Of a stretch of DNA of 9,628 nucleotides, positions 495 through 8,054 are shown piece after piece (position 1 is the stretch's first letter; each line of letters opens with the position of its first letter). The notes under the pieces were generated by a model that saw nothing but the letters and a program-made list of their open reading frames with translations, was not told the DNA's origin and made no database searches. Where the stretch lies: the NCBI GenBank assembly GCA_014377915.1, contig JACMOT010000532.1, positions 1 through 9,628 on the forward strand. Reading direction: 5' to 3'. This DNA is from Tardiphaga sp. (lineage in GTDB: Bacteria; Pseudomonadota; Alphaproteobacteria; Rhizobiales; Xanthobacteraceae). Position numbers and translations under genes: made by a program.

Positions 495-510
495 AGCAAA
501 GACGGTGCCA
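495..510 (-). promoter_or_regulatory. Sigma-54 (RpoN) promoter of the SnoaL-like gene
   Basis: On the minus strand the sequence reads TGGCACCGTCTTTGCT, which fits the -24/-12 consensus TGGCAC-N5-TTGCW exactly, with GG and GC separated by 10 bases. With the GC at -12, transcription would start near 484, giving a leader of about 31 bases that contains the AGGAGA ribosome binding site before the ATG at 453. Confidence 0.75.
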
Positions 511-512
511 GC

Positions 513-547
513 ACTGTATCCGATCCTGTGTAAGGATTGTATACGAT
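513..547. promoter_or_regulatory. Tandem 12-mer repeat, candidate activator or repressor site
   Basis: ACTGTATCCGAT (513-524) and ATTGTATACGAT (536-547) match at 10 of 12 positions and are 23 bases apart, about two helical turns. The second copy is nearly palindromic. They lie about 157 and 134 bases upstream of the predicted start of the importer operon, the usual distance for a sigma-54 enhancer-binding activator. The second copy also fits the TNGTNNACNA pattern of FCD-type GntR operators, so a repressor is an alternative. Confidence 0.4.
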
Positions 548-587
548 TTAATCGCGAGCTGGACGTATATTAGGCAGCCGGAACGTC

Positions 588-624
588 GGAAAGCGCAATG
601 CTGACGGGCCTCGTTGCGATTTCG
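588..624. promoter_or_regulatory. Inverted repeat in the divergent control region, candidate regulator site
   Basis: GGAAAGCGCAATG (588-600) and CGTTGCGATTTCG (612-624) form a dyad that matches at 10 of 13 positions with an 11-base spacer. Its centre is about 122 bases upstream of the predicted minus-strand start and about 69 upstream of the plus-strand start. It could be the upstream activating site for the SnoaL-like gene or shared by both promoters. No specific regulator is recognised. Confidence 0.35.
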
Positions 625-648
625 AGCCCGCGCCGATCGCATACGCGG

Positions 649-664
649 TGGCACACCGATTGCT
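649..664 (+). promoter_or_regulatory. Sigma-54 (RpoN) promoter of the ABC importer operon
   Basis: TGGCACACCGATTGCT fits the sigma-54 consensus TGGCAC-N5-TTGCW exactly, with GG and GC 10 bases apart. Transcription would start near 675, leaving a 27-base leader that holds the TGGAGGGG ribosome binding site (687-694) ahead of the ATG at 702. This implies dependence on RpoN and on an ATP-driven enhancer-binding activator, often a sign of nitrogen-limitation or substrate-responsive control. Confidence 0.8.
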
Positions 665-2916: not shown

Positions 2917-5409
2917 ATGAAGCGCTTTTCGCTGTGGGATTTTGCGATGCCGCTGGCGGTGCTGGCGCTGACCGGCGCGGCGCTGCTGTACGCCGCCAGG
3001 GCCGAGGGCTATGTGCCGTTCGTGCTGGCGATGGTGGCGCTGACGGCGATCGTCGGCGTCGGCCTCAATATCCTGGTCGGCCTCACCGGCCAGATCTCGC
3101 TCGGCCATGTCGGCTTCTATGCCATCGGCGCCTATACGGTGGCGATCCTGACGCTGAAGGGTTTCAGCTTCTGGCTCGCGCTGCCGCTCGCCGGCCTGAT
3201 CTCCGGCGCCATCGGGCTGTTGCTGTCGCTGCCGGCGCTGCGCGTCAGCGGGCCCTATCTGGCGATGGTCACCATCGCCTTTGCCTTCATCGTGCAGCAT
3301 CTGTCGATCGAGTGGCGCGGCGTCACCGGCGGCTCCAACGGGCTGATGGGCCTGCCGTCGCCGATGCTGGGCTCCGTGATGTTCGCCGAGCGCGAGATCG
3401 CGCTGCTGGCGATTTCCATCGCCGGAGCGTCGACCTATCTGTTCTATCGTCTGGCGCGCTCGGCGTGGGGCAAGGCGATGGTCGCGGTGCGCGACGCCGA
3501 GGTGGCGGCGCGCTCGATCGGCCTCAATCCGGTCACCGTCAAGGCCGCGGCGTTCATGCTGTCGGCGGTGTTCGCCGGCCTCGCCGGCGGCATCTTCGCG
3601 TCCCTGCTGGCGTTCGTGTCGCCGGATTCGTTTCCGTTCTCGCAATCGATCCTGTTCCTGTTCGCCTGCATCGTCGGCGGCGCCGGCTGGGTGCTCGGCC
3701 CCGCGGTCGGCGCGGTGATCACCGTGGTGTTGCCGGAGCTGCTCTCCCATCTCGCCGAATACCGGCTGCTGTTCTTCGGCGCGCTGCTGCTGGTGGTGCT
3801 GTGGCTGGCGCCGGAAGGCGTGCTCGGCACATTGGCGCGGCTGTTCCGCCGCGCCAATCCGCGCGCCGCCGAACCGGGCGGAATCGATGTCGCGGCGTTT
3901 CTGACTTCCGGCAATGATCGCGCGGCGCTGGAAGTGCGCGACATCGGCATCAGCTTCGGTGGCATCAAGGCGGCATCGAATGTGTCCTTCAGCGCCGCGC
4001 AGGGGCGGGTGACCAGCGTGATCGGCCCGAACGGCGCCGGCAAGACCACCGTGCTCAACATGATCGGCGGCTTCTACCGGCCGGACAGCGGCAGCATTCG
4101 CCTCGGCGCCGAGCAACTTGCCGGCGCGCCGGCGTGGCAGGTGGCGCGCGCCGGCATCGGCCGCACCTACCAGACCACCAAACTGTTCGAGACCATGAGC
4201 GTGCTCGACAATGTGCTGATCGCGATGCGACGCGGCCAGCTCGGCTCGATGCTGTCGGCCGCCGCCACGTCGAGCGATGAGGACGCCGCCGAGGCGCTGA
4301 TCGCCTTTGTCGGCTACAAGGGGGCGCTCGCCGCCATCGCCGGCGACCTGCCGCATGTCGATCGCCGGCTGGTCGAGATCGCCCGCGCGCTGGCGATGCG
4401 GCCGCGGGTGCTGCTGCTCGACGAGCCCGCCGCCGGGCTGATGGCCTCCGACAAGGAAGCGCTGAGCGGATTGCTGCGCCGGATCGCCGATGTCGGCATC
4501 GCCGTGATCCTGGTCGAGCATGACATGCGGCTGGTGATGGGCATTTCCGACCACATCGTGGTGCTCGGCGCCGGCCGTCCGATTGCCGCCGGCACGCCGA
4601 ACCAGATCCGCCACGATCCGAAAGTGCTCGCCGCCTATCTCGGCGCCGCCGGCATGCAGGCCCGCGCGCGCATCGCGCCATGGGCCGGATCGCAGGATGC
4701 CGTGCTCACCGCGATCGATCTGTCCGCCGGCTATGGCGCGGCACCGGTGCTGCGGAAACTCAATTTCGAGGTCAAGCCCGGCGAGATGGTGGCGCTGATC
4801 GGCGCCAATGGCGCCGGCAAGTCGACCATGATGCGCGCGGTGGCTGGATTGCTGCGGCCGGTGGAAGGCGACGTCATTCTCGATGATGTCCGGATCGAGC
4901 GCCACGAGGCGCATCGCATCGCCGCGCGCGGCCTCGCGCTGGTGCCGGAAGGCCGCCAGGTGTTTCCGGAGATGACCGTGTGGGACAATCTCGAGCTCGG
5001 CGCCAACACCCGCAAGGACGTCGACTACGCCACCGAGATCGAGGCGCTGCTGAAGCGCTTCCCGCGGCTGCGCGATCGGCTTGGCAGCCGGGCCGGGCTG
5101 CTGAGTGGCGGCGAGCAGCAGATGCTGGCGATTGCCCGCGGCATGATGGCGAAGCCGCGCATCCTGCTGCTCGACGAGCCGTCGCTGGGGCTGGCACCGG
5201 CGATGATCCAGGAATTGTTCGACGTGCTCGCCGACCTCCGCGACGAGGGCATCACGATTCTGCTGGTCGACCAGATGGCGGTGCTGGCTCTCGCCGTCGC
5301 CGATCGCGGCTATGTCATCGACTCCGGAAAAATCGTCCGCGAGGACAGCGCGGAAAATCTCGCGCGCGATCCCGAAGTCGAGGCCGCCTATCTCGGCCAT
5401 GCGTCGTAG
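2917..5409 (+). CDS. LivM-LivG-LivF fusion: permease plus two ATPase domains of the HAAT importer
   Basis: One 830-residue protein joins three normally separate subunits. Residues 1-312 are a LivM permease (GLNILVGLTGQISLGHVGFY near 48-67; coupling segment VRDAEVAARSIGLNP). Residues 336-576 are a LivG ATPase: Walker A GPNGAGKTT 370-378, Q-loop Q419, Walker B LLLDEP 499-504, switch H535. Residues 595-830 are a LivF ATPase: Walker A GANGAGKST 629-637, signature LSGGEQQ 729-735, Walker B LLLDEP 750-755, and Q786 where the switch histidine would be, as usual in LivF. The LivG signature is degenerate: LPHVD at 478-482 replaces the usual YGQ-type sequence. Linkers are near 313-335 and 577-594. With LivH this makes a complete importer of two permeases and two ATPases. 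The frame is open throughout, with no internal stop or ribosome binding site needed. AAGG at 2906-2909 lies inside the livH end. Confidence 0.93.
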   Translation: MKRFSLWDFAMPLAVLALTGAALLYAARAEGYVPFVLAMVALTAIVGVGLNILVGLTGQISLGHVGFYAIGAYTVAILTLKGFSFWLALPLAGLISGAIGLLLSLPALRVSGPYLAMVTIAFAFIVQHLSIEWRGVTGGSNGLMGLPSPMLGSVMFAEREIALLAISIAGASTYLFYRLARSAWGKAMVAVRDAEVAARSIGLNPVTVKAAAFMLSAVFAGLAGGIFASLLAFVSPDSFPFSQSILFLFACIVGGAGWVLGPAVGAVITVVLPELLSHLAEYRLLFFGALLLVVLWLAPEGVLGTLARLFRRANPRAAEPGGIDVAAFLTSGNDRAALEVRDIGISFGGIKAASNVSFSAAQGRVTSVIGPNGAGKTTVLNMIGGFYRPDSGSIRLGAEQLAGAPAWQVARAGIGRTYQTTKLFETMSVLDNVLIAMRRGQLGSMLSAAATSSDEDAAEALIAFVGYKGALAAIAGDLPHVDRRLVEIARALAMRPRVLLLDEPAAGLMASDKEALSGLLRRIADVGIAVILVEHDMRLVMGISDHIVVLGAGRPIAAGTPNQIRHDPKVLAAYLGAAGMQARARIAPWAGSQDAVLTAIDLSAGYGAAPVLRKLNFEVKPGEMVALIGANGAGKSTMMRAVAGLLRPVEGDVILDDVRIERHEAHRIAARGLALVPEGRQVFPEMTVWDNLELGANTRKDVDYATEIEALLKRFPRLRDRLGSRAGLLSGGEQQMLAIARGMMAKPRILLLDEPSLGLAPAMIQELFDVLADLRDEGITILLVDQMAVLALAVADRGYVIDSGKIVREDSAENLARDPEVEAAYLGHAS

Positions 5410-5443
5410 ATGCAAGACACCCAGCTCTACAACGCGGTCGTTC

Positions 5444-5572
5444 CCCGGACGCGGTGCAGCGCGCCGCATCTTTGCGGCGTGGTGCGCCGCAGAGCCGGGG
5501 TCCCGATTGTGCAGGCAACAAACCGGGATCCCGGCTCTGCGGAGCGGCACTTCGCGCCGCACCGCGTCCGGG
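5444..5572. repeat. Large nested palindrome between importer and hydrolase genes
   Basis: The outer arms CCCGGACGCGGTGC (5444-5457) and GCACCGCGTCCGGG (5559-5572) pair perfectly over 14 bases. Inner arms CCGCAGAGCCGGGGTCCCG (5487-5505) and CGGGATCCCGGCTCTGCGG (5524-5542) pair at 18 of 19. A small hairpin, CGCCGCA-TCTT-TGCGGCG, sits at 5462-5479. It is a dispersed Bradyrhizobium-type repeat and fills most of the 221-base gap at 5410-5630. It lacks a T-run, so it is not a classical intrinsic terminator. No sigma-54 or sigma-70 promoter is convincing in the gap, so the downstream enzymes probably depend on read-through. Confidence 0.85.
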
Positions 5573-5630
5573 ACACGATATCACTCAGCCCAACTGACGC
5601 GCTTCTAATCGCTACCCAAGGAATTCCGGT

Positions 5631-6863
5631 ATGACCTTCGACCTCATCCTGCGCAACGCCGCCATCGTCGATCGCGCGGGCATCGCCGATATCGGCATCC
5701 GTCACGGCCGCTTCACCGCTATTGAAGCTGACCTCCCCAAGAGCGCGCCGGAACAGGATCTGGCCGGTCGCCTCGTCGTTGGCGGTTTCGTCGAAACCCA
5801 CATCCATCTCGACAAGTCCTGCCTGCTCGGCCGCTGCAATTGCGAGCAGGGCACGCTGGCGGAGGCGATCGGCGAAGTCGCCAGGGCCAAGCGCGGCTTC
5901 ACCGAGGAGGACGTCTACGCCCGCGCTTCGCAGACGCTGGAGAAGGCGATCAAGCACGGCACCACGCAGATGCGCACCCATGTCGAGGTCGATCCCCGCG
6001 TCGGCCTCACCAGTTTTCGCGCGCTCAAGCAACTCAAGGCGGACTATGCCTGGGCGATCGATCTGCAGCTCTGCGTGTTTCCGCAGGAAGGCCTGCTCGA
6101 CGATCCCGGCTGCGAGGACATCATGCTGCGGGCGATGAAAGAGGGCGCCGACGTGGTCGGCGGTGCGCCCTATATGGACAAGGATTCGCACGGCCAGATT
6201 GCCAGGATCTTCGAAATGGCAAAGACATTTGGCACCGACATCGATTTCCATCTCGATTTCGCGCTCGATCCCACCCATCTCGACCTCGACGAGGTCTGCC
6301 GCATGGCGACGGCCACCGGCTGGGGCGGTCGCGTGGCCATCGGCCATGTGACGAAGCTGTCCGCGATGCCCAGGGCCGGCTTCGAGGCCGCGGCGAAACG
6401 CCTCGCCGATGCCGGCGTCGCGGTCACCGTGCTGCCGGCCACCGACCTGTTCCTCACCGCCCGCGACCACGAATTCAACGTGCCGCGCGGCGTTACCGCG
6501 GCTCACAAACTGCGCGCGCTCGGCGTCAACGCCAACGTCTCCACCAACAACGTCCTCAATCCATTCACACCGTTCGGCGATGTCTCGCTGATCCGGATGA
6601 TCAACCTCTATGCCAATGTGCTGCAGGTCGGCACGTCAGACGAACTCGCTTTCTGTCTCGACATGGTGACGTCGGCGTCGGCCCGGCTGCTCAACCGCGG
6701 CGATTACGGCATCAAGGTCGGTAACCCCGCCGACCTCGTGGTGCTGGATTGTGCCACCAAGGCGGAGGCGGTATGCGAGGTCGCGCAGCCTCTGTTCGGG
6801 CTGAAGCGCGGCGTTCGCACCTTCACCAGGCCCGCCGCCACGCTGCACCGGCCCACGAACTGA
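5631..6863 (+). CDS. Amidohydrolase-superfamily enzyme of the CodA/AtzC (cytosine deaminase-like) group
   Basis: A 410-residue cytoplasmic TIM-barrel metal hydrolase. The N-terminal DLILRNAAIVD and C-terminal GNPADLVVLD strands form the small beta-sandwich typical of the family. Metal-site motif THIHLDK gives H57, H59 and K62; further conserved histidines are H207 (DFHLD) and H239 (GHVTK). H207 and H239 are 32 residues apart, the same as H214 and H246 in E. coli CodA as I recall it. At the CodA Glu217 position there is F210, and at the CodA Asp313 position there is N306 (VSTNNVLNP), so two key acidic residues are absent. Cytosine deamination is therefore unlikely and the substrate is open; a ring amide, ureide or N-substituted amide is plausible. 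AAGGA at 5618-5622 precedes the ATG by 8 bases. The amidase gene follows after 15 bases, suggesting consecutive steps. Confidence 0.88.
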   Translation: MTFDLILRNAAIVDRAGIADIGIRHGRFTAIEADLPKSAPEQDLAGRLVVGGFVETHIHLDKSCLLGRCNCEQGTLAEAIGEVARAKRGFTEEDVYARASQTLEKAIKHGTTQMRTHVEVDPRVGLTSFRALKQLKADYAWAIDLQLCVFPQEGLLDDPGCEDIMLRAMKEGADVVGGAPYMDKDSHGQIARIFEMAKTFGTDIDFHLDFALDPTHLDLDEVCRMATATGWGGRVAIGHVTKLSAMPRAGFEAAAKRLADAGVAVTVLPATDLFLTARDHEFNVPRGVTAAHKLRALGVNANVSTNNVLNPFTPFGDVSLIRMINLYANVLQVGTSDELAFCLDMVTSASARLLNRGDYGIKVGNPADLVVLDCATKAEAVCEVAQPLFGLKRGVRTFTRPAATLHRPTN

Positions 6864-6878
6864 TTCACGGAGATCTCG

Positions 6879-8054
6879 ATGCCGATCAACGACACGCTGA
6901 ATGCCTTTGTCGCCCATGGCCGCATCGATGTGCGGACGACGAATGAAGGCCCACTCGCGGGCTTGAGCTTCGCCGTGAAGGACTTTTACGACATCAAGGG
7001 CCTGCCGACCGCCGCCGGCAGCCCGGAATGGCTGGCGACGCATCCGGTGCCCACCCTCTCGACGCCAATCTATGATCGCCTGCTCGCGGCCGGCGGCACA
7101 TTCGTCGGCAAGACCCACACCGACGAACTGGCGTGGAGCCTGAACGGCGAGAACGCGCATTACGGCACGCCGACCAATCCGGCCGCGCCCGGCCGGATTC
7201 CCGGCGGCTCCTCCAGCGGCTCGGCGTCGGCCACCGCCGGCGGACTGGTCGATTTTGCGATTGGCTCCGACACCGGCGGCTCGGGGCGGCTGCCCGCCAG
7301 CTATTGCGGCGTCTATGGCATCCGCACCACCCATGGCCGCATCCCGCTCGCGGCTGCCGTGCCGCTGGCGCCGAGCTACGACACGGCTGGCTGGTTTTCG
7401 CGCAGCGCCGACATGATGCAGACAATCGGCGATGTGTTGCTCGACGGCGCCCGCGCGCCGCGCAAGATCACCAAGGTGCTGGTGGCGCGCGATCTGTTCG
7501 CGGCGATCGATGACCGTGTCACCGCCGCGCTGCGGCCCTCGGTTGACAAATTGCTGGCGCTGGTCGGCACCAGCGAGGCGGTCGATGTCGCGAGCGGCGA
7601 TATCGCCGCGTGGCGCAACGTGTTTCGCGTCATCCAGTCGGAAGAGGCCTGGGCCGCGCAGGGCGAATGGATTTTGGCGACGAAGCCGAAATTCGGCCCC
7701 GGCGTCAAGGAACGCTTCGCGGCCGCGGCATTGATGGACACGGCCGAGATCGCCGCCGCCAAGGCATTGCGCGAAACCATTGTCGCGCGATTGTTGTCGC
7801 TGATGACACCGGACACCGTGATGGTGCTGCCGACCTCGCCGGGCATCGCGCCCTTGCTCAACACCCCGGCCGACCAGCTCGATACCTTCCGCTTCCGCGC
7901 CATCGAGCTGTTGTGCCTCGCCGGCCATGCCGGCCTGCCGCAGATTTCGATTCCGGCCGCCACGCTCGATGGCTGCCCGCTCGGCCTGTCGATCATCGGC
8001 GCAAGGAATTGCGACGAGGATATTCTGGCGCTGGCGGTGCAATTGGCGAAGTAG
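6879..8054 (+). CDS. Amidase-signature family amidohydrolase, compact AMI1-like type
   Basis: A 391-residue amidase-signature enzyme that would hydrolyse an amide to a carboxylate plus ammonia or an amine. The Ser-cisSer-Lys triad is complete: K34 in FAVKDFYD, cis-Ser S111 in GGSSSGSA, and nucleophile S135 in DTGGSGRLP, with the usual 24-residue spacing between the serines. The segment GENAHYGTPTNP followed by RIPGGSSSGSA resembles, from memory, indole-3-acetamide hydrolase AMI1 of plants and its bacterial relatives. It is shorter than GatA or AtzE (about 450-490 residues) and lacks the C-terminal domain of allophanate hydrolase. No signal peptide is seen, so it is cytoplasmic. GGAGA at 6869-6873 lies 5 bases before the ATG. 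As the last operon gene it is a likely final ammonia-releasing step. Whether indoleacetamide is a substrate cannot be told. Confidence 0.9.
   Translation: MPINDTLNAFVAHGRIDVRTTNEGPLAGLSFAVKDFYDIKGLPTAAGSPEWLATHPVPTLSTPIYDRLLAAGGTFVGKTHTDELAWSLNGENAHYGTPTNPAAPGRIPGGSSSGSASATAGGLVDFAIGSDTGGSGRLPASYCGVYGIRTTHGRIPLAAAVPLAPSYDTAGWFSRSADMMQTIGDVLLDGARAPRKITKVLVARDLFAAIDDRVTAALRPSVDKLLALVGTSEAVDVASGDIAAWRNVFRVIQSEEAWAAQGEWILATKPKFGPGVKERFAAAALMDTAEIAAAKALRETIVARLLSLMTPDTVMVLPTSPGIAPLLNTPADQLDTFRFRAIELLCLAGHAGLPQISIPAATLDGCPLGLSIIGARNCDEDILALAVQLAK

Follow-up and report, generated by a model that had tools for sequence, protein, structure and literature searches.

The window (the whole 9,628-nt stretch of DNA analysed here) carries two divergently oriented sets of genes. 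On the minus strand lies a gene for a SnoaL-like protein (22–453), whose match to PF12680 (E = 0.00097) is below the Pfam cut-off and whose nearest solved structure is the C-terminal part of 9mua, a longer chain named Tautomerase (E = 5e-22). On the plus strand are genes for the branched-chain/amide-type substrate-binding protein of an importer (702–1889; PF13458, E = 4.6e-59), an importer permease (2015–2914; PF02653), a permease-ATPase-ATPase fusion (2917–5409; PF02653 and two PF00005 stretches), a cytosine-deaminase-like amidohydrolase altered at catalytic places (5631–6863; PF07969/PF01979) and an amidase (6879–8054; PF01425; 516.5 bits to NF006169 against a cut-off of 391). Judged from these sequences, the transport system belongs to the branched-chain/amide type. 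Large inverted repeats lie between operon genes at 5438–5578, in the gap that precedes the amidohydrolase gene (5410–5630), and at 1886–1929; they are possibly dispersed palindromic elements. An Rfam scan of the window at gathering score matched no RNA element, and a literature search for this importer/amidohydrolase/SnoaL-like unit found no paper.

The cytosine deaminase CodA and the AtzC amidohydrolase are the nearest solved structures to the amidohydrolase of the window, which shares with them HxH, PQEG and two later His residues. Unlike CodA, the 72 aligned orthologues have HLDF (L in 71/72) instead of HCDE and NN instead of DD, such that F and N occupy in all 72 the places of the CodA Glu (of HCDE) and Asp (of DD), which we take to be its catalytic residues. 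The protein should therefore not be called a cytosine deaminase.

An earlier note had claimed that both strands of the 248-base gap between the SnoaL-like and substrate-binding protein genes carry exact matches to TGGCAC-N5-TTGCT with the correct 10-base GG-GC spacing. We confirmed both points. One predicted sigma-54 -24/-12 promoter, TGGCACACCGATTGCT (649–664, plus strand), faces the importer operon and the other, TGGCACCGTCTTTGCT (495–510, minus strand), faces the SnoaL-like gene; an excerpt of PMC4999443 quotes the sigma-54 consensus as TGGCAC-N5-TTGCW, and the GG and GC are 10 bases apart in both elements. The plus element is separated by 37 bases from the ATG at 702, which is preceded by GGAGGGG, and the ATG of the SnoaL-like gene (453–451, minus strand) is preceded by AGGAG. 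If transcription starts near 675 (plus) and 484 (minus), as the earlier note proposed, the leaders would measure about 27 and 31 nt, respectively.

These two are the only exact copies in the whole window, and from the composition of the gap itself 8.0e-5 (plus) and 4.4e-5 (minus) exact matches are expected. Six related genomes of 5.1–8.6 Mb each contain 9, 14, 10, 11, 19 and 11 exact copies versus 2, 3, 4, 3, 4 and 5 copies of reversed-pattern controls. When up to two mismatches are allowed, the window holds five matches against 2.5 expected, and 16/200 shuffles reach five. Thus the window is not clearly enriched at this level and only the exact pair stands out, which is why we build the case on exactness, placement and conservation.

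Conservation of the plus element was examined with a scan for the substrate-binding protein, at one genome per species, that returned 491 stretches with a relative; 80 of these became loci (L numbers; genomes are given G numbers), and all counts over 81 loci refer to these 80 plus the window. In 63/81 loci the strict form TGGCA[CT]-N5-TTGC lies no more than 250 nt from the estimated start, whereas only 6/10,394 control strand-windows, each 250 nt long and taken from these loci, contain it. The plus element is thereby kept in orthologous gaps from alpha- to gammaproteobacteria, including Pseudomonas, Thalassospira, Roseibium, Vibrio and Rhodoplanes, although it is unusually distant in L036 and L024 (224 and 143 nt ahead of the start). 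Among the 18 loci without the strict motif, L035, L044, L052 and L059 have near-matches. Within the family of G001 we searched 296 genomes, 50 of which gave a match to the protein with E no higher than 1e-100. The 30 top-scoring matches were taken as loci, several of them in genomes already represented among the 80, and all 30 have the plus element. It is likewise kept in 12/12 sequences in an alignment of the gap from the window and 11 relatives. The divergent SnoaL-like gene is upstream in 68 of the 80 loci, while 11 lack a match and L028 has the gene elsewhere; in L027 the gap to it is 1.1 kb. A further gene family recurs in 36 of the 81 stretches (L054:5744–7414 and 35 others), and its two scanned members are gamma-glutamyltranspeptidases.

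The minus element has a narrower distribution. Among the best 30 family matches, the 11 closest relatives (substrate-binding protein identity about 85–95%) retain the strict element in ten cases, the exception being L145, in which the GG is lost. The strict form was seen only within the clade of the window (L001–L004 and L137–L147 except L145). At a comparable place, nine of the other 19 loci have TGGC-N8-TGC, e.g. TGGCCGGGAAAATGCA, and a Bradyrhizobium RpoN study (PMC13207237) tabulates similar predictions, among them TGGCCGGACATTTGC and TGGCACGATTTATGC. This restriction to one clade, together with the loss in L145, would fit a situation in which the plus promoter works alone, the minus element matches by accident or is decaying, and the SnoaL-like gene is transcribed from a different promoter. 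We consider this improbable, because in the 12-gap alignment the minus element is kept in 11/12 sequences while its flanking sequence varies, and because its distance from the candidate enhancer described below is nearly constant in the clade. A sigma-70 scan of both strands of 400–750 found no promoter that could serve instead, but because only 0.1 is expected by chance this result has little weight.

The gap holds further conserved sequence beyond what the earlier note described, namely a predicted GntR-type operator and a predicted NtrC-type dyad. The candidate GntR/FCD-type operator ATTGTATACGAT (536–547) is invariant in 12/12 clade sequences and makes up the longest unbroken run of invariant bases in the gap. 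A probable second, degenerate operator, CTGTATCCGA, lies at 514–523, with GTATCCG in 10/12. FCD regulators bind dyads of the type TTG-N4-CAA, and this pattern is found in 54/81 gaps compared with 3–8 for spacers 0–3 and 5–9; the half-sites are nearly constant and the centre varies (TTGCATGCAA, TTGCTAGCAA, TTGTATACGA). A GntR/FCD gene is present in 72/81 stretches (four members were Pfam-scanned). In close relatives it lies directly past the SnoaL-like gene, so its expected place here is just beyond the left end of the window. In the gammaproteobacteria it is found some 6 kb or more downstream, with an identity of only about 31–40%. The regulator of G230, a complete genome, scores 104.2 bits, against 271.5, with TIGR03338, the NCBIfam model that fits it best. 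The palindrome of Pseudomonas overlaps the -12 element, which suits repression there, whereas the operator of the window sits between the promoters and its regulatory sign is less clear.

The prominence of this operator is the one feature that might suggest that both -24/-12 matches are coincidental and that GntR and sigma-70 alone govern the gap. We regard this as extremely improbable, since the genome copy counts, the control windows, the conservation across the family and the composition expectation all oppose it. The earlier note had likewise held a chance origin of the pair to be very unlikely, and the composition expectation, genome controls and conservation in orthologues bear this out. 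Chance origin of the elements was rejected on their exactness, the genome counts with controls and orthologue conservation. Taken on their sequence, both elements are predicted sigma-54 promoters and not chance matches.

Between the two promoters lies a candidate shared enhancer, the NtrC-type dyad GCTGGACGTATATTAGGCAGC (558–578, centre 568), which matches TGC[CA][CT]-N7-[AG][GT]GCA at 9/10 positions. It is the best match of the gap to this model, although its left half (TGGAC) is imperfect; the plus -24 lies 81 nt and the minus -24 58 nt away from its centre. The 12-gap alignment shows it as a fourth conserved block, more degenerate than the minus element, the operator and the plus element. 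In the 12 clade sequences we searched the region 63–92 nt upstream, resolving ties in favour of positions closer to 80. The distance between dyad centre and plus -24 is 80–81 nt in 11/12 (70 in L145), and that to the minus -24 is 57–58 nt in 10/11 (46 in L137, whose dyad scores 7/10); the two exceptions deviate by 10 and 12 bases, roughly one turn of the helix. In a free scan the dyad at 80–81 nt is the sole best match in 7/12, including the window, and ties for best in L142 and L147 and for second in L143; in L145 a dyad at 70 nt ties for best, and in L137 the dyad is outside the top three. The free scan slightly lowered our confidence in the explanation that we favour below.

Beyond the clade, gammaproteobacterial promoters reach at least 9/12 matches to the NtrC consensus in 19/24 cases (shuffle mean 1.0, maximum 4), and alphaproteobacterial promoters have GCC-N9-GGC in 13/41 (0–4 for other spacers; 1.6 in shuffles). 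A pooled dyad model, built after inspecting these sequences, is matched at 9/10 or better in 70/81 loci versus 11.6 in shuffles. Spacer 11 also peaks (39/81), which we ascribe to repeats of the GntR operator in Thalassospira and Roseibium, so that the NtrC site of these two genera is unproven. For comparison, four glnB sigma-54 promoters (G017, G230, G004 and G006), drawn from 17 P-II loci in five genomes, have dyads at 93–95 and 113–116 nt, although in the G230 gap both score just 7/10, below another dyad at 164 nt. A helical-phase test was applied to 36 hand-picked rows, with Thalassospira, Roseibium and other rows left out, among them the off-phase rows L003 (76), L008 (112), L023 (157), L029 (17), L071 (51) and L079 (48). 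It gave a Rayleigh p of about 5e-11 for rows that are not independent and 0.01 on 12 distinct distances, and our argument does not depend on it.

The weakness of the left half-site and the outright preference for the dyad in only seven of the 12 clade members might indicate that the dyad is no NtrC site and that the two sigma-54-dependent promoters respond to another enhancer-binding protein, such as NtrX, NifA or a pathway-specific activator. G230, whose substrate-binding protein is 95% identical to that of the window, indeed encodes several sigma-54 activators besides NtrC. We consider this alternative unlikely, if slightly less so than a functional plus promoter alone, because the gammaproteobacterial dyads fit the NtrC consensus, comparable dyads occur in the glnB gaps and, as shown below, absence of the -24/-12 motif tracks alteration of NtrC itself. 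In addition, 14 activator queries from two genomes were run against the 81 stretches, and L027 was the only one in which a linked sigma-54 activator gene was found. A dedicated linked activator was rejected on this ground.

The G230 genome contains 35 TGGCAY-N5-TTGCW sites versus 4 for the reversed control, of which 30 became loci and nine downstream genes were scanned. The scanned genes include a radical-SAM/FeMo-cofactor (nif-type) gene, three genes for family-5 peptide-binding proteins, and one each for an importer permease, a hydantoinase A and a member of the isochorismatase family; behind some sites no gene is evident. Past its GntR gene, G230 has a second branched-chain-type importer (L207:11221–12375) with its own sigma-54-like site, TGGCACTTCATTTGCA (L207:11159–11174). 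Another divergent sigma-54-like pair occurs at L195 (G230:C1:5929061 and 5929160), where one site faces a family-5 substrate-binding protein gene and the other a similar-looking frame.

We compared the promoter motif with the presence of RpoN and with the state of NtrC. Of the 50 orthologue-bearing genomes that we tested for RpoN, covering 50 of the 80 loci, 42 gave a match. Seven of the eight RpoN-less genomes belong to genera of Rhodobacterales, and none of these seven has the strict plus motif; the eighth, L002, is a draft genome in which the motif is present. RpoN presence alone is thus associated with the motif (31 loci with both, 11 with RpoN only, one with the motif only and seven with neither; p = 0.002). 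NtrC was searched in 46 genomes and read in 45 (G022 gave no readable frame), and the comparison covers 44 because G230 has no locus among the 80; only the protein of G230, our closest complete genome, was identified by a family model (TIGR01818, 744.6 bits), the others being taken as top matches. The sigma-54 loop is present in NtrC of G230, G002, G001 and G004, the closest relatives of the window, and the G[AS]FTGA loop is lacking in 8/44, comprising the seven RpoN-less Rhodobacterales and L028, likewise Rhodobacterales, whose genome keeps RpoN.

None of the eight loci with loopless NtrC has a strict -24/-12 motif, compared with 29 of the 36 with the loop (29/7/0/8; Fisher p = 3.6e-5, uncorrected for shared ancestry), making loop state a better predictor than RpoN presence. 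The 36 comprise 32 with GAFTGA and four with GSFTGA, which we presume to be loop-bearing; with the exact string GAFTGA only, the split is weaker (25/7/4/8, p = 0.011) because of these four. Seven loci have an intact loop yet lack the strict motif. Conversely, L031 and L036, labelled or placed in Rhodobacterales, have both loop and motif, the latter lying far from the start in L036. The losses of loop, RpoN and motif may represent a single event in Rhodobacterales, and the Fisher value therefore overstates the independent evidence.

The seven RpoN-less Rhodobacterales loci (L025, L043, L058, L063, L065, L066 and L072) all have TTTGAC 65–85 nt ahead of the start, a feature seen in 2/74 loci elsewhere. 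All seven also have a full-score dyad 54–56 nt before TTTGAC and a GntR-type operator, and in several an AT-rich -10 candidate follows about 20 bases downstream, a longer spacing than usual. According to the accessible portion of PMC10274813, Rhodobacterales NtrC lacks the loop and R. capsulatus NtrC works with sigma-70. We would credit and doubt in equal measure the proposal that enhancer and operator were kept here and the -24/-12 element was swapped for a TTTGAC-type promoter at a similar place after Rhodobacterales NtrC lost its loop, and that the unit includes an amidohydrolase of a distinct subfamily together with a SnoaL-like partner for a nitrogen compound.

We regard it as likely, from these sequence comparisons, that the locus is an NtrC/RpoN-activated, GntR-modulated nitrogen-scavenging regulon in which one dyad is shared by two promoters. 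Under nitrogen limitation, phosphorylated NtrC would most likely bind the dyad at 558–578 and activate RpoN-RNA polymerase at both promoters by DNA looping, with the plus promoter driving the importer/amidohydrolase/amidase operon and the minus promoter the SnoaL-like gene. Our comparisons thereby support the reading of the earlier note, which placed both gene sets in one RpoN regulon. The hydrolases would belong to the same regulon because of the continuity of the operon. A local GntR/FCD regulator would bind TTGTATACGA, and probably TGTATCCG too, and may gate both promoters according to the pathway substrate. The encoded pathway presumably scavenges nitrogen from an organic compound. The link to nitrogen, a suggestion in the earlier note, is strengthened by the NtrC-type dyads upstream of the plus promoter, the comparable glnB dyads and the lack of -24/-12 elements alongside loopless NtrC in eight genomes. 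If this is correct, a widely conserved importer/amidohydrolase/SnoaL-like unit gains a physiological setting, namely nitrogen limitation that is probably substrate-gated, which lets its substrate be sought by growth tests. The change in Rhodobacterales would also offer a natural experiment in how a promoter changes its sigma factor under the same activator.

The arrangement is conserved but of a fundamentally familiar, NtrC/RpoN nitrogen-scavenging kind. Urea importers and, in Rhizobiales, atzF are reported as members of the NtrC regulon (PMC5343134). Operons of the urt, atzF and amt/gln type resemble the window in their -24/-12 elements, upstream NtrC-type dyad, importer and C-N hydrolases, but the window has a different importer and amidohydrolase, an extra GntR-type operator and a single dyad flanked by two divergent promoters. 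Rhodobacterales NtrC acting with sigma-70, as far as the excerpted source describes it, is matched by the seven RpoN-less orthologues, which keep the dyad and lack both the -24/-12 motif and the GAFTGA loop, whereas the relatives of the window represent the sigma-54 side of this split. Finally, GntR/FCD-regulated catabolic clusters have the TTG-N4-CAA operator in common with the present locus and the nearby GntR/FCD gene in common with most of its orthologues; the locus differs in combining such an operator with sigma-54 promoters.
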